Source of the DNA: a virus
IMG/VR virus record: IMGVR_UViG_3300037961_004406
Coordinates: 1-29,632 of that record
Direction: 5' to 3' (one strand)
Length of the DNA: 29,632 nucleotides
Shown: in pieces, positions 10,075 through 25,093 of the stretch
Numbering within the stretch: position 1 is the first letter of the stretch
Layout of the letters: each line of letters opens with the position of its first letter
Notes under the pieces: generated by a model
Told to the model about the DNA's origin: nothing
What the model saw: the letters and a program-made list of their open reading frames with translations, nothing else
Databases searched by the model: none
Made by a program: the position numbers and the translations under genes

Positions 10075-10224
10075 TTATCCTTTTTTGCGGTTGTACAACT
10101 TTTTAGATTGTATCACTTTTTGTTTATACTTTGAAGACCCTAAGCTTTTAGCCATGGGATTCTTTCTAGCCCCACGTAATTTACCGTCCACTTGTTGTCT
10201 CATTTGTGATCTTGATATAGCCAT
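10075..10224 (-). CDS. 49-aa basic peptide directly after the second halogenase
   Basis: An ATG at 10224 opens a 49-codon frame ending with TAA at 10075. The product begins MAISRSQMRQQVDGKLRGAR and continues with Lys-rich sequence (SSKYKQKVIQSKKLYNRKKG). The MAISR start with a nearby Gln/Arg recurs in short phage peptides and also opens the major capsid protein of this window. No good ribosome binding site is seen, so translation may depend on coupling with the halogenase, which stops only 11 bases upstream. Function unknown; a small virion or DNA-binding peptide is possible. Confidence 0.55.
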   Translation of the reverse strand: MAISRSQMRQQVDGKLRGARKNPMAKSLGSSKYKQKVIQSKKLYNRKKG

Positions 10225-10235
10225 AGTTAATTATA

Positions 10236-11669
10236 TTACGTATTTCTTATGTTTTCAATCCATCTTTTATGAGAAATATAATTACGCTTCTCATCTAAAT
10301 AATTATTGACCATATTCTCAGTTGTTTTTGTTAAAATTTTTAAAGCATTTCTATCAAATTTTAATAGGAGTTTTTTAATTTCATCAGAATTCCAAAAATC
10401 CATACCGTATAAAACTTGTGTATAATTTTCAGTGTAAAATAAACTATAAGAACATCCTAAAAAATCTTCACCAATCGGAGGTCTTGTTTTCCAAATTTTT
10501 AACTTATCTTGTAGCTCATCAGGTAAAGTAACATCTTTTTCATTTAGGTAATGTATTAAAACAAATTCTTTAAGATTATTCATAACAATAGACATTTTAT
10601 CATTATACCTTTTTCTAGAAGCAGGACTTGGATCAATAAAATATTGATTGAATAAAAAGATTTGTTGTATTGTGGTTCCGATAGAAGTAGCCTCTAAAGG
10701 TTCAATGAAACTAGCACATAAACCAACTGCTAAACAATTTTGTATCCACATTTTTTCTAATGCACCAGGATCAAATTTTACATGCTTTCCTATTTCTATT
10801 TCATGTCCTAGTATCTCCTCAGATTCTTTTTTTGCTTGATCAGCATTTTTTAAATTGTTATTATAAACATGCCCATTACCCCATCTTCCATATGTAGGTA
10901 TTCTCCATGTCCAACCATTATTAGTTTTTCTTGATTCTGTATAAGGGGTGTATTCATTTGTATCCTGAGTTGGAAAAGCTATTGCTTCGTTCATAGGAAA
11001 CTGTTTTGAATAAGATTTCCATTTACCTCCAACACTAGAAATTAACAATCTTTTAAATCCTGTACAATCAATATAAAAATCTGCTGTATAATCTTTTTCC
11101 CCTATCAGTTTGTCTATTCTTCCTAAATCATTTAATCTAACAGTTTTAATAGTGTCGTTTGTAATTTTAATTCCACGTTGTTCGCATTTTTTTAGTAAGT
11201 ATTTATTTAATTTAAAAGTATTAAAATGATATTGTTTTGAAGGTGATTTATTTAAATCATTTTTAACTAAATTTTCAATCGCTAAATAATCAGCGGTTTT
11301 AATTTGATCAACTTTATTTGCAAGTAAACAAAGATAAGAAAAATTTAATTGACCTAATTTAATATCTGAAAACCCTCTTTGAATGCTGTGATAATAATTA
11401 TGTTTGCTCCATCCACCTGTAAAGTAAATTCCTAATTTTACAGTAGCGTCTGTTTCTTTAATTAATTCTTTCCAATCTATTTCACAATAATCTAAAAAAT
11501 CCTGCCATTGTTCTGTTGATCCTTCACCTACTCCTATGATACCAATCTCTTCTGATTTTATAATTTCTATATCTACGTTATAAGTTTTTTTCAAAATTAA
11601 AGCTGAAAGTAAACCTGCTGTTCCTCCACCTACAACTATTATCTTATTGACAGATGTATCCATTATCAT
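10236..11669 (-). CDS. Flavin-dependent (tryptophan-type) halogenase, copy 2
   Basis: This 477-aa protein is a full-length FAD-dependent halogenase. The FAD-binding GGGTAG lies at residues 14-19, followed by GIIGVGEGSTEQW. The catalytic Lys that forms or places the haloamine/HOX is Lys78 in DATVKLGIYF. The family signature WxWxIP is at 253-258 (NGWTWRIP), and the catalytic Glu is Glu326 in FIEPLEATSIG; characterised enzymes usually have Ser where Ala327 stands. Such enzymes use FADH2, O2 and halide; no flavin reductase is encoded nearby, so the host would supply it. It is paralogous to the halogenase at 13825-15216. Its start (ATG or the ATG two codons later, after AAGG) overlaps the preceding oxygenase-like gene by 26 bp. 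Substrate and halide are unknown. Confidence 0.9.
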   Translation of the reverse strand: MIMDTSVNKIIVVGGGTAGLLSALILKKTYNVDIEIIKSEEIGIIGVGEGSTEQWQDFLDYCEIDWKELIKETDATVKLGIYFTGGWSKHNYYHSIQRGFSDIKLGQLNFSYLCLLANKVDQIKTADYLAIENLVKNDLNKSPSKQYHFNTFKLNKYLLKKCEQRGIKITNDTIKTVRLNDLGRIDKLIGEKDYTADFYIDCTGFKRLLISSVGGKWKSYSKQFPMNEAIAFPTQDTNEYTPYTESRKTNNGWTWRIPTYGRWGNGHVYNNNLKNADQAKKESEEILGHEIEIGKHVKFDPGALEKMWIQNCLAVGLCASFIEPLEATSIGTTIQQIFLFNQYFIDPSPASRKRYNDKMSIVMNNLKEFVLIHYLNEKDVTLPDELQDKLKIWKTRPPIGEDFLGCSYSLFYTENYTQVLYGMDFWNSDEIKKLLLKFDRNALKILTKTTENMVNNYLDEKRNYISHKRWIENIRNT

Positions 11670-12213
11670 CGTTGACCTTTTCTATTAAAGTTTTCTTTTC
11701 ATCTATATCAGTTATTAACAAATTTCCTGCATAGGTTTCAATATTTGAAGATTTTTTTACCATATGTTCTAAATAACTTGGGAAAATTACTATTTGTCCT
11801 GGCCTAAATTCAGATTGATAAGTTTGTTCAAAAAAATTTTCACCATAAAAACATTCTATTAAATGTTTATGTGGAGCAAAGAATACAGTTCTAGATGCTC
11901 CTTTGATATATATAATAAAACTAAAATGAGAGTCTGTATGTATATGGTTTTCTTGAAAATCCTCTGTAATATATTTATTCTTCCATATGTTGCATAATTT
12001 AATTTTTGAAGATGCAGGTAATAAAGGCATAATTGTTTTTGCTATAACTGTCATTAAATAATGATAAGATTCTTTAGATAATTTATTTTTTTGTCCATGA
12101 GAAGTATTAGTATTAGAATACCATTTATTTTCTGCTGTTTCAGCTTGTAAGTCAATTTTTTCCAAATCTATATTTGTCATAAAGATAGGAGTTGAAAATA
12201 TATTAAATTTCAT
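11644..12213 (-). CDS. 2OG-Fe(II) oxygenase-like protein, copy 2 of the cassette
   Basis: This 189-aa protein resembles the putative 2OG-Fe(II) oxygenases of the PF13759 type. Candidate metal ligands are in ENHIHTDSHFSFIIYIKG (His90, His92, Asp94) with a distal His150 in IVIFPSYLEHMV. The expected Arg after the distal His is not evident (NIETYAGNLLITD), so activity is less sure than for other family members. It overlaps the carbamoyltransferase end by 11 bp and the second halogenase start by 26 bp. It shares FPSYL-H and the general layout with the protein at 15206-15703, indicating that the oxygenase and halogenase were probably duplicated as a pair. Confidence 0.7.
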   Translation of the reverse strand: MKFNIFSTPIFMTNIDLEKIDLQAETAENKWYSNTNTSHGQKNKLSKESYHYLMTVIAKTIMPLLPASSKIKLCNIWKNKYITEDFQENHIHTDSHFSFIIYIKGASRTVFFAPHKHLIECFYGENFFEQTYQSEFRPGQIVIFPSYLEHMVKKSSNIETYAGNLLITDIDEKKTLIEKVNDDNGYICQ

Positions 12214-13825
12214 TTTTAATTATTAGTTTCTTTTTTTCAGGAAGGTAAGAATATACAAGATTTGTTTCTAACATCATACTCTTCAAATCTTCTAAATTTT
12301 CTACAATTGGTGATCCTGGTTTATTTAGTGATGTATTAAGTAAAAAAGGTATTTGGTAAATATCATTAAAAGCTTTTAACAAATCATGATAATTAGTATT
12401 TTTTTCACGTATTAGTTCCTGGACTCTTGAGGTTCCTTGAGGACATAACACATTAGACAAATGTTCTTTTTTTGATTCTTGAGCTCTAAATACATTCATC
12501 ATAAATTCAGCACTTCTATTCGAATCTCGAATAAAATATTTTTCAAAATATTCACTCATAATAGTACATGCAAAAGGTCTGTACCATTCCCTTTTTTTAA
12601 TAGTGTTTATTTTATCTATGCATCTTAAATTAGTTGCATTCATCAAAAGACTTCTATTACCTAAAGCTCTTTGTCCTTGTTCTGACCTGCCCTGAAATAT
12701 TGCAACAGGGTCTTCAAATAAAATTTTTGCTACTTCTCCAGGAGAAACATCTATTATTCTAAATTTGTTATTAAATATTTCTAAATTATATTCAGGCTTG
12801 AATCCTAAATAACAATGATTTGGTCTTTGTATTGTATTAAAATTATAATGATTTAAATGACCTAAAGATATACCTTGATCATTACATATGGGATCATGAA
12901 AAATATCAAAATCAAAAGATAAAGATAAATCAGTATTTATCAGAATATTTTGTGTTACACCTCCAGTTATAGTAATGGGTTTGGATATACTTAATTTTTT
13001 GAAATAATTTCTTGCAATAAATTCACATGCCTTTTGAAATGTAAATGAAAAATTCATAGCATCATTATTACCTTTCTCTGTATTGAAATTTTTATATGCA
13101 GTTACTTTTTTATTTAGAGAATAATTTGGAAAAGGAGCTATTATATTTCTGTTAAAAGTATGATTACTAGATATTATATCACTAATATATTTTTCATCAT
13201 ATTTACCAAAAGATGAAAAAGCCATAGCTTTACCTTCAGAAAAATTATCATTTTCGAAAAGACCTAACTCTCTTGTTAAGAAAGTGTAGGCTTCTCCTAT
13301 ACCAAGATTGTTAGGAGAGGTATGTAAAAAGTCTTTTTGATAATTAAAAGGATCAGGATTGTATAAATATTTACGAATTTGTTTTAAATCATTTCTATAA
13401 AAAGAAACTTGTTCAACTCCTTTGATATTTTGTTCTAAGCTTACCTCTGCTCCGTTACCATCCCAAACTAAATAATCCGTATTGTTATTAAAAGATTTTG
13501 CACAGGCTGCATGAAATAAGTGATGGTTTTTAGATATTAAAATTTTTGCTTTTGGATGTAAGCATTCTCTAAAAAATTTCAAACCGCTTCCTTTGTTAAA
13601 TAAAAAACTTCGCCAAAGGTCAGTTAAATTATCTGACATTTCTGCAAATAAAACTACATCAAATACAATTCCTAGTTCTGCAATTTTTTTAATAATTTCA
13701 TAATTAGGTAGAGGGCTATGTTTAAATTTATTAAATCTACTTATTTCACAATGTACAATTAATTCATTATCTTTTGAAACAGAAATAGCTCCATCATGTG
13801 AAGTATATATCGAGAGAACATTCAT
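12203..13825 (-). CDS. NodU/CmcH-type O-carbamoyltransferase
   Basis: This 540-aa protein is the full length expected for the NodU/CmcH/TobZ family, which transfers a carbamoyl group from carbamoyl phosphate to a hydroxyl through a carbamoyl-adenylate. Family marks in order: SHDGAIS (10-14), the metal-binding HxxxH in NHHLFHAACA (His101, His105), WDGNG (Asp122), EGKAMAFSSFG, ITGGVTQNILIN, and the C-terminal-domain QGRSEQGQRALGNRSLL with KKREWYRPFA and NTSLNKPGSP. All appear intact. ATG overlaps the preceding halogenase stop as TAATG, and the following oxygenase-like gene overlaps by 11 bp. The acceptor could be a sugar, a small hydroxylated molecule or modified DNA; related viral enzymes have been linked with carbamoylation of hydroxymethylcytosine, but no hydroxymethylation gene is in this window. 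Confidence 0.9.
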   Translation of the reverse strand: MNVLSIYTSHDGAISVSKDNELIVHCEISRFNKFKHSPLPNYEIIKKIAELGIVFDVVLFAEMSDNLTDLWRSFLFNKGSGLKFFRECLHPKAKILISKNHHLFHAACAKSFNNNTDYLVWDGNGAEVSLEQNIKGVEQVSFYRNDLKQIRKYLYNPDPFNYQKDFLHTSPNNLGIGEAYTFLTRELGLFENDNFSEGKAMAFSSFGKYDEKYISDIISSNHTFNRNIIAPFPNYSLNKKVTAYKNFNTEKGNNDAMNFSFTFQKACEFIARNYFKKLSISKPITITGGVTQNILINTDLSLSFDFDIFHDPICNDQGISLGHLNHYNFNTIQRPNHCYLGFKPEYNLEIFNNKFRIIDVSPGEVAKILFEDPVAIFQGRSEQGQRALGNRSLLMNATNLRCIDKINTIKKREWYRPFACTIMSEYFEKYFIRDSNRSAEFMMNVFRAQESKKEHLSNVLCPQGTSRVQELIREKNTNYHDLLKAFNDIYQIPFLLNTSLNKPGSPIVENLEDLKSMMLETNLVYSYLPEKKKLIIKNEI

Positions 13826-15216
13826 TAATAATATTTTAAAATTAAATCTATGGCTTCTTTGTGCCCTATCTTTGGACTTTTATCATTAAAAGCTATAAAT
13901 TCCTCTGTATCTTTTACCACTTTATTTTTTAAATTAACAGGTAAATTTTCAAATACGTTTTTAATTAAATCAACATTAAAATAATTTAATCCATATAATA
14001 CTTCAATATAATTACCCGATTCAAATAAACCATAAGGCACATTTACATCCTCATCTTTTGGTAAATTATTTTTCCACTTACGTAGTTTGTCATTAAGTTC
14101 AGAAGATATCTCTCCATTTAGTTCTGAGTTTAAATAGTGCAGCTGTATAAACTCAACTAATTGATCAAAGACTTTATTAACAGAATAATTATATATTTCT
14201 TGATTATTGTTATCATGATATAAATTTAAAAACATAAAAACTTGATTAATAGTGCTTCCAATAGATGTGGCTTCAAGAGGTTCTACAAACATAGCAGAAA
14301 GGCCTACTGATAAACAATTCTTATTCCAAATTTTTTCTAACCTGCCTGGGTAAAAATTAAATTCTCTTTTACCTTGATCAATTAATTGTTTAATATCATC
14401 ATCAATTAATAAATCATTATATACAACACCATTACCCGTTCTATCTTGAGTAGGTATACGCCATTTCCAGCCACCTTTATATTTTTTTGCTAACGTCCAA
14501 GCATTATATTGATTCATCTTTTCAGTTTGAAAAGCAACTGCTTTATTGCATATAAGTTTGTGTGAGTAACTTTTCCAATCAGATTTATTAAGTAATCTTT
14601 TAAAACCTGTGCAATCAAAATAGAAATCTGCTAAATATTTTTTTTCACCTTGAATAAAATTAATTTGTTCTGTCTCATTAATTTTTACAATATGATCATC
14701 AAAAACATGTATATCTCTTTCTCTTGCTAATTTATAAAAATAATCATTTAGTTTGAATGTATCGAAATGATATTGGTTTACAGGAGATTGATTTGGTCTT
14801 TCTAAAAAATTAGGGTAAAATTTATTTTCAAAATAACATTGATCACTCAAAGGTAATTGAGAAAAAGAATCAGAAAGGTCATTACCAATATGAAAAAGAT
14901 AATAAGGTTTTGTTCTCAACCAATTTTGATCATGAAACACTGACCTAGTATGTAAAAATTCTTTATCTGACCAACCATTAAAAAATATTCCTGATTTAAA
15001 AGTAGCTCCAGTATGTTTTAAAATATCGTAGGGCTTAACACCGATAAAATTAATAAAACTTGTAAATTCTTTAGTAGAACCTTCTCCTACTCCAATTATT
15101 CCAATTTTGTCTGATTTTATAATGGCTACACTTTTTTCAGGGTATGCAGCTTTTACCATTAAAGCTGTAATATATCCTGCTGTGCCTCCACCTAGTATTA
15201 AGAAGTTATATTTCAT
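13825..15216 (-). CDS. Flavin-dependent (tryptophan-type) halogenase, copy 1
   Basis: This 463-aa protein contains all main halogenase landmarks: GGGTAG (9-14), GIIGVGEGSTKEF, catalytic Lys74 in GATFKSGIFF, CTGFKRLL after the second FAD strand, W250-x-W252-x-I-P255 (GGWKWRIP), and Glu315 in FVEPLEATSIG. As in copy 2, Ala replaces the Ser that usually follows the catalytic Glu. Characterised relatives halogenate indoles, pyrroles or phenols, and a cyanophage member of the family (VirX1) prefers iodide. The substrate-binding middle region differs strongly from copy 2, so the two probably act on different substrates or positions. It overlaps the upstream oxygenase by 11 bp and the carbamoyltransferase start by one base. 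Confidence 0.9.
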   Translation of the reverse strand: MKYNFLILGGGTAGYITALMVKAAYPEKSVAIIKSDKIGIIGVGEGSTKEFTSFINFIGVKPYDILKHTGATFKSGIFFNGWSDKEFLHTRSVFHDQNWLRTKPYYLFHIGNDLSDSFSQLPLSDQCYFENKFYPNFLERPNQSPVNQYHFDTFKLNDYFYKLARERDIHVFDDHIVKINETEQINFIQGEKKYLADFYFDCTGFKRLLNKSDWKSYSHKLICNKAVAFQTEKMNQYNAWTLAKKYKGGWKWRIPTQDRTGNGVVYNDLLIDDDIKQLIDQGKREFNFYPGRLEKIWNKNCLSVGLSAMFVEPLEATSIGSTINQVFMFLNLYHDNNNQEIYNYSVNKVFDQLVEFIQLHYLNSELNGEISSELNDKLRKWKNNLPKDEDVNVPYGLFESGNYIEVLYGLNYFNVDLIKNVFENLPVNLKNKVVKDTEEFIAFNDKSPKIGHKEAIDLILKYY

Positions 15217-15703
15217 TAAACAAGTCTTTTGTAGACTGTTTTGTTAATAATTCAAGATTTAAAGATATCCTTTTCTCATCAGTTATTGATACATTAGGGT
15301 GATGCCATAAATAGCTAGGAAATATAATTAATTCATTTTCACAAGGTATGTAATTAACCACTTTATCATTTATTTTAAAATCTATACCTTTTTCATCACT
15401 ACAAAGTTTAAGATAAATAACTCCGTTTATATTTGCAGTGTCTTGATGATTATGCCAATTTGTTAATGTATAATTTTTATCTGAAACAGAACACCAAACA
15501 TTAAACTCTTCTTCTAAAATATCTATATTTTTAAAAAGTTCTTTGCACTTTGAAATAAAGATATCATATAAATCTGCTCTGTATTTTGTATGTAGTAAAA
15601 AATTAAAACCTTCTGTTTTATAGTCTCTTTGTTTTATTGCTTCTTCTATAATTTCATCTTTAAAAGGTAAATCAACTTTATAGCTAAAGATGTCCTTAAA
15701 CAT
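15206..15703 (-). CDS. 2OG-Fe(II) oxygenase-like protein, copy 1 of the cassette
   Basis: This 165-aa protein has a PF13759-like outline. Candidate metal ligands lie in LTNWHNHQDTANINGVIYL (His84, His86, Asp88) and IIFPSYLWHHPNVS (His134 or His135), with Arg145 in DEKRISLNLEL in the place of the 2-oxoglutarate-binding residue. It is the first gene of the halogenase cassette, starting five bases after the M15 peptidase stop, with no strong Shine-Dalgarno sequence, so it is probably read as part of the same late transcript. Its 3' end overlaps the halogenase start by 11 bp. Presumably it hydroxylates the same substrate or scaffold that the halogenase and carbamoyltransferase act on; this is inference. 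Confidence 0.75.
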   Translation of the reverse strand: MFKDIFSYKVDLPFKDEIIEEAIKQRDYKTEGFNFLLHTKYRADLYDIFISKCKELFKNIDILEEEFNVWCSVSDKNYTLTNWHNHQDTANINGVIYLKLCSDEKGIDFKINDKVVNYIPCENELIIFPSYLWHHPNVSITDEKRISLNLELLTKQSTKDLFNEI

Positions 15704-15708
15704 GAATC

Positions 15709-16185
15709 TTAGACTAAGGTTTTAGCACTTCCTATAATCGGTTTATATTTTGTTTTGCCTTCAGAACGATAAGCCCATAAATAAGAAGCTCTTGGTTGAT
15801 TAGGAATCCAGCTACAATGTATCCAACCGCTGTTAGGTTCACCTGGAGTGTAGAACTCAAGGATAAGCTGATCATAGGGAAGGTTCTTATGAATCCAATC
15901 AGCTAGTTCAGCATTATCTACGCCTGGACATTCGAAATCTGCCGCCTCGGCTTTGGCATGTTGGCTGTTCTGACTCGATCCTATGGCTAGGCACAGGTCT
16001 ACGCTACGGAACCCGCTAGTGACCTTAACCCTGCCGAAGTGATCACGCACTGGCTGTAAGATATTCTCACATAATGCTTTTAGTTTTTCTATCTGCTCTG
16101 CGTTAGGGTTATTATTTATACCCTTACGTATTGCAGTATCTGATTTAGTTAATTCTGATAAAGTGAAATTACGACTTAGATTCAT
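15709..16185 (-). CDS. M15-type peptidase (probable endolysin)
   Basis: This 158-aa protein is a D-Ala-D-Ala carboxypeptidase-like peptidase of the M15_3 type. It begins with FTLSELTKSDTAIRKGI, the usual N-terminal marker. The zinc ligands are His76 and Asp83 in SQHAKAEAADFE and His123 in SGWIHCSW. There is no signal peptide, so release would depend on a holin. Such proteins cut peptidoglycan cross-links for lysis. The ribosome binding site is good (TTGGAGTAAATATG). Base composition is unusual: 64 of 120 bases in 15901-16020 are G or C, against 31 of 120 in 10561-10680 of the nearby halogenase, suggesting a separate origin. Three small genes immediately upstream form a likely lysis group with it. 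Confidence 0.85.
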   Translation of the reverse strand: MNLSRNFTLSELTKSDTAIRKGINNNPNAEQIEKLKALCENILQPVRDHFGRVKVTSGFRSVDLCLAIGSSQNSQHAKAEAADFECPGVDNAELADWIHKNLPYDQLILEFYTPGEPNSGWIHCSWIPNQPRASYLWAYRSEGKTKYKPIIGSAKTLV

Positions 16186-16925: not shown

Positions 16926-17429
16926 TTAAAAATAATTAAGATTTATGTAGTATCTTACATCACAATTATTATGTTTTACAGACCTATGCAATATATTGGC
17001 ATCAAAAATAAGCATTCTATTTTCAACACTTTCTATAAAAATTTCCTTATTTTCAATCATTAAATGGGTTCCCCCGTCACAAGTAGTCAAATTTAATATA
17101 GCTGTTTTGTTATTTGTAAAGGTATCTGTATGATAATTAGAAAAATCACTTAAAAATAATTGTTTTATATTCATATTTGCTCTAGCTTGTATTACTGCTT
17201 TAGCATTCAATTTTATAAGTATTGGTATAATTATTTTTTCATAAAGATCACTTTGGTTGTTTAAATAATTATAGAAACAATATGTAAAATACCCATGATC
17301 ACACTCTTCTCCCTTTCCTGTTGTCATTCTTGATCTTCTTCTCCAAGGAAAGTCTTCATTTGAAATAGTATTTTTTATTTTTTGAAAAAATTCTTTTTCT
17401 AAAAAATTATCTATGATTTGATAACTCAT
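16926..17429 (-). CDS. 2OG-Fe(II) oxygenase
   Basis: This 167-aa protein has the canonical set of residues: His100 and Asp102 in DFSNYHTDTFTNNKTAILNL, distal His148 in FDANILHRSVKH and Arg159 in CDVRYYINLNYF. IDNFLEKEFFQKIK at the N-terminus is the usual start of the P4Hc-like domain, and QARANMNIKQ precedes the core. It should be catalytically complete. It begins four bases inside the preceding unknown gene (ATGA-type overlap) and precedes the lysis-like group. Substrate unknown. Confidence 0.85.
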   Translation of the reverse strand: MSYQIIDNFLEKEFFQKIKNTISNEDFPWRRRSRMTTGKGEECDHGYFTYCFYNYLNNQSDLYEKIIIPILIKLNAKAVIQARANMNIKQLFLSDFSNYHTDTFTNNKTAILNLTTCDGGTHLMIENKEIFIESVENRMLIFDANILHRSVKHNNCDVRYYINLNYF

Positions 17430-19862: not shown

Positions 19863-20408
19863 TCAAGAATCTAGTTGTTCATAAAAGTTAAATGAAATTC
19901 CATACTTAATTTTATTGTCTAGAATTCTCGATTTTGTTTGGTGGTATAAAAAACTTGAAAATAGAGCAAAGTTACCCGCTTCAGGGACAACGGACTCATT
20001 GATTTCATCAAATATGAGAGGCTGATCTACATTTGATAGATATATCAAACCTGATAATACACCTGGATGATGGCTATGTCGTTTTGTATAATTTGAAAAA
20101 GTTTCCTTATAGCCCCAAGCATTAGCAAGATAAACTTTTTTATCTAATAAATTATGTGCTTCACAATAGTCTAAAATTTTTGAAGCTATTTTAGCAAATT
20201 CGTAATCTTGACAAAAATATCTCCATTCTGTCATTTCTCCTTGAACATTTGATTGAAAATTTTTATTATCAGGTGCTTTTATACCCTCTTCTATTTTTTG
20301 AATAAAATATTGACAATTTAAATCTAGATTGCCTTTAATAAAAAAATAATTTTGTGAGATTTTTGATTCTTTGTGTTTAAGAATTTTCATTCTGTATTGA
20401 CTTAACAT
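19863..20408 (-). CDS. 2OG-Fe(II) oxygenase-like protein after the capsid gene
   Basis: This 181-aa protein has the PF13759-like pattern: candidate ligands in NYTKRHSHHPGVLSGLIYLS (His111, His113 or His114), distal His156 in FALFSSFLYHQTKSRI, and a final strand NKIKYGISFNFY with Lys as possible 2-oxoglutarate anchor. The first ATG at 20408 lies within the U tract of the capsid terminator; a second ATG at 20390 (residue 7) is an alternative start. Neither has a Shine-Dalgarno sequence. Expression would thus depend on read-through and is likely low. Substrate unknown. Confidence 0.7.
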   Translation of the reverse strand: MLSQYRMKILKHKESKISQNYFFIKGNLDLNCQYFIQKIEEGIKAPDNKNFQSNVQGEMTEWRYFCQDYEFAKIASKILDYCEAHNLLDKKVYLANAWGYKETFSNYTKRHSHHPGVLSGLIYLSNVDQPLIFDEINESVVPEAGNFALFSSFLYHQTKSRILDNKIKYGISFNFYEQLDS

Positions 20409-24293: not shown

Positions 24294-24674
24294 TTATTTT
24301 CTTTTTATCAAATCAGTAGCCTTAAGGCCATAAACACTCGCTATGACACCTACGAAAATTGTTTGGTACCAAAATGGGAGGTTCGAGAAATACTCGAAGA
24401 AAAGTTGCATCTTTTCCATGTGCTCAGGATTATCTGACCAAACTGCAAATCCTAGCATCACGATTGGCACCGAGAGCAAAAGCAAAATGAATTCGTCTTT
24501 CCAGTCTGATTGACGGGCTTCAAGAAGTTTGCCCTGGTATTCAATCTGTCCGTTGGCCATACGCTCTGCTGTTCTCATTTGAGCATCTGACATTAATTTC
24601 TTCGTTTCTTGTTTGTTTTTGTAGATATGAGCCCCAGTCTTCACAGCCATACCCAGCAGGTTTAACCAAGCCAT
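24294..24674 (-). CDS. GTA-type (3TM) holin-like membrane protein
   Basis: This 126-aa protein begins with a hydrophobic MAWLNLLGMAVKTG, continues with a polar helix, and has two clear membrane helices at about residues 62-79 (ILLLLSVPIVMLGFAVW) and 101-118 (FWYQTIFVGVIASVYGLK), with DWKDEF before the first and NLPFWYQ before the second. This is the pattern of the phage/gene-transfer-agent holin family of three membrane segments. It would form lesions for the endolysin. It has a strong ribosome binding site (AAGGAGAAAATACAATG). Its first 134 bases are also read, in another frame, by the end of the homing endonuclease. Confidence 0.7.
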   Translation of the reverse strand: MAWLNLLGMAVKTGAHIYKNKQETKKLMSDAQMRTAERMANGQIEYQGKLLEARQSDWKDEFILLLLSVPIVMLGFAVWSDNPEHMEKMQLFFEYFSNLPFWYQTIFVGVIASVYGLKATDLIKRK

Positions 24675-25050
24675 TGTATTTTCTCCTTCTTCTTAAACAC
24701 ATATATGGTATCATTTCTTGAAGAACAATCCAAGCCCTTTCTCCAACCAGTTTCCAACGAAATAAATTTTTGTGATGTGCTTTTCTTGAGCCAGTAGTGT
24801 GAAATATTCCACCAAACATTTCATGAAAACGAGCTACCATGTCTGAATCACATGTTTCTACCTTAATTTGTAGTTGTTTTGGTCTATTTTTACCACGACT
24901 CCATACTCCAAAACTGCCTTCCCCGTCAAAAATACCTGAAAGAAAAATTATTTTCTCATTTTTTGTTAGGTTGTCGTATGCTGAAAGATTTTTTTTGAAG
25001 TTTGACCTTAATTCCTTGAGGATTTGGCCCTCTTTTTGGGGGTGGCCCAT
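24541..25050 (-). CDS. LAGLIDADG-type homing endonuclease
   Basis: A single LAGLIDADG-like motif, LSGIFDGEGSF (residues 37-47 from the chosen start), with acidic Asp and Glu, is followed by a beta-rich DNA-contact region (QLQIKVETCDSDMVARFHEM, GIFHTTGSRKAHHKNLFRW) and helix WIVLQEMIPYM. One motif implies a homodimer. I chose ATG at 25050 because GGAGGT lies seven bases upstream; an in-frame GTG start at 25065 would add five residues. Both ends of the frame run through neighbouring genes in other frames: about the first 25 codons overlap a small conserved gene, and the last 134 bases overlap the holin. This suggests recent insertion. Confidence 0.75.
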   Translation of the reverse strand: MGHPQKEGQILKELRSNFKKNLSAYDNLTKNEKIIFLSGIFDGEGSFGVWSRGKNRPKQLQIKVETCDSDMVARFHEMFGGIFHTTGSRKAHHKNLFRWKLVGERAWIVLQEMIPYMCLRRRRKYNGLVKPAGYGCEDWGSYLQKQTRNEEINVRCSNENSRAYGQRTD

Positions 25051-25093
25051 ATTTTTTACCTCCACTTAGTCCTTTTCTTTTTTCTCTAGACAT
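24956..25093 (-). pseudogene. Small Gly/Pro-rich gene, probably cut by the homing endonuclease
   Basis: ATG at 25093 opens a 45-codon frame reading MSREKRKGLSGGKKYGPPPK then RGPNPQGIKVKL, a motif I know as the start of a small conserved marine phage protein. After that the frame continues only as KKSFSIRQPNKK and stops at 24956, inside the homing endonuclease gene. The usual C-terminal part is missing, so the gene looks interrupted, and the surviving N-terminal part is read in a second frame as the endonuclease N-terminus. It starts five bases after the stop of the preceding small gene. The family memory is not precise. Confidence 0.5.

Follow-up and report, generated by a model that had tools for sequence, protein, structure and literature searches.

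The five-gene enzyme cassette of a pelagiphage described here is, by its gene content across related phages, best described as exchangeable modular cargo at one fixed genomic junction rather than one fixed pathway. We tentatively read it as surface- or virion-tailoring cargo, with a receptor-binding or tail protein, or its glycan, as the likeliest acceptor, and give this reading a probability of about 0.4. The window, that is, the whole 29,632-nucleotide stretch that was analysed (positions 1 to 29,632 of IMGVR_UViG_3300037961_004406), belongs to a virus record of 53,951 bases. Within it, five minus-strand open reading frames follow each other in the order OG1, Hal-A, CT, OG2 and Hal-B with successive overlaps of 11, 1, 11 and 26 nt, exactly where and as the original prediction, made from the letters alone, had placed them. 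The cassette and its two bordering genes are as follows.

15709..16185, minus strand: M15 peptidase endolysin, upstream slot border (PF08291 4e-17; phrog_894 endolysin 3.5e-44)
15206..15703, minus strand: OG1, 2OG-Fe(II)-oxygenase-fold protein (PF13759 3e-7; phrog_81 1e-13)
13825..15216, minus strand: Hal-A, predicted flavin-dependent halogenase (PF04820 Trp_halogenase 4e-71)
12203..13825, minus strand: CT, predicted NodU/TobZ-type O-carbamoyltransferase (PF16861 5e-43; PF02543 9e-12)
11644..12213, minus strand: OG2, 2OG-Fe(II)-oxygenase-fold protein (PF13759 2OG-FeII_Oxy_5 4e-9)
10236..11669, minus strand: Hal-B, second predicted flavin-dependent halogenase (PF04820 6e-86)
10075..10224, minus strand: small basic protein (49 aa), downstream slot border (homologue of HTVC023P gp50)

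Both OG1 and OG2 exceed the Pfam gathering cut-off for PF13759, and the PHROGs assignments of the cassette genes are consistent with Pfam, so that the enzyme families first proposed for all five genes are borne out by both collections. Their location between lysis and virion genes is borne out too. The cassette has a GC content of 26.6%, compared to 34.8% elsewhere in the window, and a GC3 of 0.13-0.15, against 0.34 for the endolysin gene and 0.28 for the capsid gene; these low values would fit a recent arrival, though the portal gene is low too. A promoter and terminator scan gave signal no higher than in shuffled sequences. A RiPP-type precursor within the cassette was considered and rejected, as the reading frames overlap throughout.

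The phage origin of the window is supported by a capsid with 88% identity to that of Pelagibacter phage HTVC023P and by synteny with that phage at the endolysin, the gp50-like gene and the adaptors. Capsid and gene order together identify an HTVC023P-type pelagiphage, whose probable host, by kinship to HTVC023P, is SAR11, the commonest bacterium of the ocean. Two further contigs (L003 and L004) carry the same DNA at 99.96-100% identity, and L006, a separate sister phage of 62 kb, has the first four genes arranged as in the window, with identities of 64% for OG1, 75% for Hal-A, 62% for CT and 59% for OG2. The gene group thus extends beyond a single contig, a point that had been left to be checked, and because the same genes occur in independent contigs, the near-identical pair and the independent sister, we reject assembly error as the source of the cassette. 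The phage of the window also encodes an ArdC-like antirestriction protein with a zincin metallopeptidase domain (L007 2139-3119; record 31138-32118). Elsewhere in the window, a three-gene module at 552-2409 comprises phrog_2954 'ferrochelatase', a PF13640 oxygenase and phrog_7084, and members of the phrog_2954 family recur at 24 of the 90 viral halogenase loci surveyed. A weak LAGLIDADG match at 24541-25065, in an ORF that overlaps the gene at 24294-24674, is possibly a homing endonuclease.

The junction itself was surveyed in 80 loci gathered by their endolysin, 34 of which show both borders; these are the nearest 80 contigs, some rows of which may be near-copies, and the counts are not population frequencies. 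The slot is empty in 24 of the 34, namely the cultured HTVC023P and 23 others, with a border distance of -3 to +2 bp; in HTVC023P, gp50 comes immediately after the endolysin gene, at a distance of 0 bp. Other loci hold one oxygenase (5/34), a CT alone (L099), OG-CT-Hal-OG (L016, present as two rows, L016 and L251, of one contig), an unknown gene (one locus) or, in the window, the five-gene set. L099 and L016 have an M15 endolysin with 85% identity. The sister phage L006 has the arrangement OG-OG-Hal-CT-OG, with an extra oxygenase ahead of the four shared genes, and L098 carries CT and OG2 elsewhere in its genome without a halogenase. The border ORF at 10075-10224, the one small ORF there, was also considered as a RiPP precursor and rejected, being a conserved gene that is present at empty slots too.

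Given that slot content varies gene by gene and that the halogenases come from different subclades, the cassette members come and go separately, and such turnover makes a strict pathway unlikely. The original prediction of one dedicated pathway, for which all five genes would be required, is therefore not supported, since the slot of relatives is empty, partial or reordered, and its single shared target becomes an assumption once the members are seen to move independently. A slot that is empty in most relatives, and whose contents differ gene by gene, would also be compatible with loosely selected cargo, that is, auxiliary genes of minor or transient benefit gathered with no common biochemical logic. 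We regard this as very improbable, as the catalytic motifs are intact and the reading frames overlap, the window and L006 share their gene order at protein identities of 59-75%, OG2 has CT or Hal as its neighbour in each of four phages, and a similar trio occurs in the distant phage S-SSM7.

By profile and motifs, Hal-A and Hal-B are PF04820 flavin-dependent halogenases with predicted halogenation activity; enzymes of this family halogenate electron-rich aromatics. Hal-A contains GGGTAG, K74, W250-K-W-R-I-P255 and E315 within FVEPLEAT, and Hal-B contains GGGTAG, the K of ATVKLG, WTWRIP and FIEPLEAT. All of the elements originally noted (GGGTAG, the catalytic Lys, WxWxIP and the catalytic Glu) are intact and align with those of solved halogenases, and K74 and E315 of Hal-A are invariant across an alignment of 40 viral halogenase sequences. 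An AlphaFold model of Hal-A (pLDDT 93) finds halogenases as its best PDB matches, with a TM of about 0.85. Hal-A is 75% identical to its L006 orthologue and 66-68% identical to that of L016. Hal-B is only 41-44% identical to Hal-A, has its closest relative in L054 (58% identity) and is absent from L006 and L016. When 122 halogenases are placed on one tree, Hal-A clusters exclusively with the L006 and L016 sequences (support 100), and Hal-B falls within a 46-row viral clade from which Hal-A is excluded (support 99). Because the two lie in separate, well-supported viral clades, we reject Hal-B as a tandem duplicate of Hal-A; it was acquired separately.

Hal-A and Hal-B are 463-477 aa long, compared to 496-538 aa for free-tryptophan halogenases of the PrnA/RebH/PyrH type, and in the alignment the C-terminal aromatic position of PyrH is I/T in both. 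We take the C-terminal region of PyrH-type halogenases to be a substrate lid, of which the aligned aromatic residue is a part. These features bear on the possibility that the cassette alters a host metabolite (tryptophan, indole, quinone or another), yielding a signal, a toxin or metabolic tuning, a proposal that gains from free-tryptophan halogenases being the closest solved structures and from VirX1, the characterised halogenase of cyanophage Syn10, which accepts many small aromatics (PMC8407142). However, the lid region of Hal-A and Hal-B is shortened and its aromatic replaced, and tryptophan is not halogenated by BrvH, a bacterial enzyme whose gene neighbours that of another halogenase (PMC5945002). 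No scaffold enzymes, NRPS and PKS enzymes included, were found in the record, and one metabolite poorly explains the five conserved halogenases found in one phage lineage (see below). On balance, tailoring of a small molecule seems doubtful to us.

A Kae1-like N-terminal half and a YrdC-like C-terminal half, both with their motifs, place CT among the NodU/TobZ O-carbamoyltransferases, which carbamoylate hydroxyls; this assignment is by domains and motifs. The HxxxH and C-terminal motifs reported earlier are indeed intact: CT contains H101xxxH105, D122, GRSEQGQRALGNRS, KKREWYRPFA, TSRVQ and LLNTSLN, and its key residues are invariant or near-invariant in an alignment of 13 relatives. Its profile matches PDB carbamoyltransferases at 1e-78 and TobZ at 8e-60, and its relatives include those of L006 (62% identity), L098 (50%) and L099 (48%). 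CT shares the PF02543 and PF16861 family with a phage-borne 5-hydroxymethylcytosine carbamoyltransferase whose activity is biochemically proven (PMC8670742), and thymine hypermodification genes occur in some HTVC023P-type pelagiphages (PMC9599517). By analogy, the oxygenases could hydroxylate a DNA base that CT then carbamoylates. We consider such base hypermodification improbable, as the proven enzyme is partnered with a thymidylate-synthase-type hydroxymethylase (PMC8670742) and none was found for CT: PF00303 thymidylate synthase is absent from 10 records (that of the window, which is possibly incomplete, that of the sister and eight cassette records), with positive controls. Moreover, OG1 and OG2 belong to PF13759, not to TET/JBP, and in other pelagiphages the genes for hypermodification are found close to PolA, outside this slot.

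The earlier label '2OG-oxygenase-like' is secure for OG1 and OG2 in fold and family and insecure for the co-substrate of OG2. OG1 has the motif HNH...H and keeps the 2OG-binding Arg; OG2 has HIH...H and lacks the conserved Arg after the distal His, and its three orthologues likewise lack this Arg, common to most relatives. HxH...H, not the classic HxD...H, is invariant in the family of OG1, OG2 and the window gene at 19863-20408, and the solved PF13759 members 2rg4 and 3bvc align at the same positions (profile match 1e-18). The same two structures are the top PDB folds for an AlphaFold model of OG2 (pLDDT 82; TM 0.5). OG1 has an orthologue in L006 and none in L016 or L099. On the oxygenase tree, OG2 forms a clade with its counterparts from L006, L098 and L016 (support 99), which always sit beside CT or Hal (four of four phages), and the trait 'downstream of CT' is clustered, with 6 changes compared to 12.1 in shuffles (0/500 shuffles). 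Oxygenase profiles drifted into one superfamily on iteration, and 'OG' outside the window denotes the broad 2OG fold. As 2OG oxygenases create hydroxyls and NodU/TobZ enzymes carbamoylate them, OG2 and CT form a coherent pair.

Two more 2OG-fold genes (16926-17429 and 19863-20408) lie outside the cassette among virion genes, one of them directly downstream of the major capsid gene. PHROG family 274 'DNA endonuclease V', to which the gene at 16926-17429 and one in L288 (4435-4989) belong, carries the HxD...H...R typical of 2OG oxygenases, and its name is used in many cyanophage records; phrog_1644 'minor coat protein' likewise touches the 2OG-oxygenase fold. Judged by these motifs and matches, both names look like misannotations.

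Islands that combine halogenase and 2OG genes are widespread among marine phages. Of the 90 viral loci with a halogenase, at least one 2OG-fold gene is present in 71 and two or more halogenases in 19; a CT is found in 23, so the neighbourhood of halogenase and CT that the original prediction had put forward for a search recurs. Direct halogenase-CT overlap was confined, among the loci seen, to the window, L006 and L016, and halogenase-oxygenase adjacency is in mild excess (59/135, compared to 45.9, sd 4.8, in within-locus shuffles), too slight to serve as the main argument. One family of larger phages packs up to five halogenases together with about nine or more 2OG genes. Arrays with four or five halogenases and between six and twelve genes of the 2OG fold are seen in L029, L283 and L284 (one 76.6-kb IMG/VR contig), L035, L036, L055, L061 and L079. 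Each array halogenase is orthologous across several contigs and falls in its own clade of the 122-halogenase tree, and these five conserved enzymes suggest several target sites.

The 76.6-kb contig was examined and has its array between tail-fibre and baseplate genes. Among cultured phages, the halogenase of S-SRM01 (L289 4992-6449) is flanked by a tail fibre gene on one side and the gp37-gp38 adhesin tip gene on the other, in Syn9 and P-TIM40 the halogenases come after tail-fibre assembly genes, and in P-SSM2 the halogenase adjoins such genes; in S-H38, S-SCSM2R and S-RIM44 it is not near tail genes. Because islands occur in the tail-fibre loci of several phages, receptor-binding proteins of the virion are our first choice of target, and several conserved halogenases per phage would imply a large target that is modified at several positions. 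Chemistry permits this target to be a protein, as SrpI, a RiPP brominase, is a flavin-dependent halogenase that acts on peptides (PMC10858898). Counting against a virion target, the slot of the window is flanked by the endolysin and small basic proteins, with no obvious tail fibre adjoining.

The T4-like phages point to a different acceptor, as their CT is accompanied by a heptosyltransferase-like (GT9-like) gene and a HAD phosphatase. With related loci counted apart, the GT9-like gene is found in 13/23 halogenase loci with CT versus 0/67 without, and the HAD phosphatase in 14/23 versus 1/67. CT might accordingly carbamoylate a sugar, e.g. heptose, of the host LPS or of a virion glycan, with the other enzymes acting on the same envelope; a precedent is WapO, a putative heptose carbamoyltransferase proposed for the LPS core of Pseudomonas (PMC8005017). 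For the CT of T4-like phages this is the best rival. As an account of the cassette we find it rather unlikely, given that no GT9, GT2 or phosphoheptose isomerase match was found in the record of the window or its sister, that sugar-linked CTs are long (about 606 aa) and 26% identical to the short CT of the window, and that flavin halogenases require an aromatic ring, which sugars lack.

Each enzyme class of the cassette was already known from marine phages (PMC3037559; PMC10452541), in line with what the original prediction stated for halogenases and carbamoyltransferases. The closest composition is that of the cultured T4-like Synechococcus phage S-SSM7 (NC_015287.1 102.5-113.7 kb; L288), in which a CT, a 2OG oxygenase, a second CT, a 2OG-fold 'denV' and a halogenase form one overlapping operon. 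It differs from the window in its enzyme lineages, its one halogenase and its continuation into heptose biosynthesis genes (a heptose kinase/adenylyltransferase-like gene and a phosphoheptose isomerase, which favour the sugar acceptor) and a cysteine dioxygenase. Syn9 and P-TIM40 resemble the window in having a pair of overlapping flavin-dependent halogenases alongside several 2OG genes, but have no CT in the stretch seen, directly follow tail-fibre assembly genes, and encode halogenases of a type about 26% identical to Hal-A. HTVC023P-type pelagiphages are themselves reported to carry several 2OG oxygenases, ferrochelatase partners, co-located 'partner' genes and DNA hypermodification, in a survey whose text does not mention 'carbamoyl', 'tryptophan' or 'halogenase' (PMC9599517).

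In bacteria, the nearest chromosomal halogenases (L125-L202) mostly occur two or more per locus. Like the window they can stand side by side with a cupin-fold partner (Cupin_8), at about 30% identity to Hal-A; they differ in being chromosomal, in their TonB receptor and SapC neighbours, in lying outside the main viral clade, and in having no CT (0/80 loci). Two halogenases filed under bacterial genomes (L123 and L124) take a basal position in the viral clade, and by this placement may be from viral contigs.

No description of a combined halogenase-CT-2OG cassette was found in open-access papers, and the S-SSM7 operon, annotated gene by gene, is not described as a cassette in those searched. 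The original supposition that no such phage system had been described thus holds for the literature searched and fails for composition, which S-SSM7, Syn9 and P-TIM40 show not to be unique; since the deposited S-SSM7 genome already holds CT, 2OG and halogenase genes, the trio of the window is a variant rather than unprecedented.

The families, motifs, slot, modularity and halogenase origins are read from the sequence, and the scheme that follows, with its late expression, catalysis, step order and target, is what we infer. The slot lies next to the endolysin, a position from which late transcription is probable, in keeping with the late-infection timing first suggested. Each enzyme would then act alone and site-specifically. 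OG2 may hydroxylate the acceptor and CT carbamoylate a hydroxyl, these two being the tightest pair, and Hal-A and Hal-B may each halogenate a different aromatic site with FADH2 from the host and chloride or bromide from seawater. Swapping of cargo would thereby vary the surface chemistry of the phage.

Extended to marine phages in general, tailoring of the virion would mean that these phages modify the tail fibres or adhesins of their own particles after translation, adding halogen, hydroxyl and carbamoyl groups at a number of sites by means of enzyme sets that can be exchanged for one another. This generalisation is speculative, and we hold it possible rather than probable; on the same uncertain footing, the pelagiphage slot could be one compact, clear-cut example of a switch in viral surface chemistry. 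VirX1 is a phage halogenase characterised in vitro without a natural substrate. The arrays in the tail-fibre loci of culturable cyanophages make the question of the natural substrate accessible to mass spectrometry, and the slot, which among close relatives is empty or occupied by one, four or five genes, amounts to a natural deletion series.
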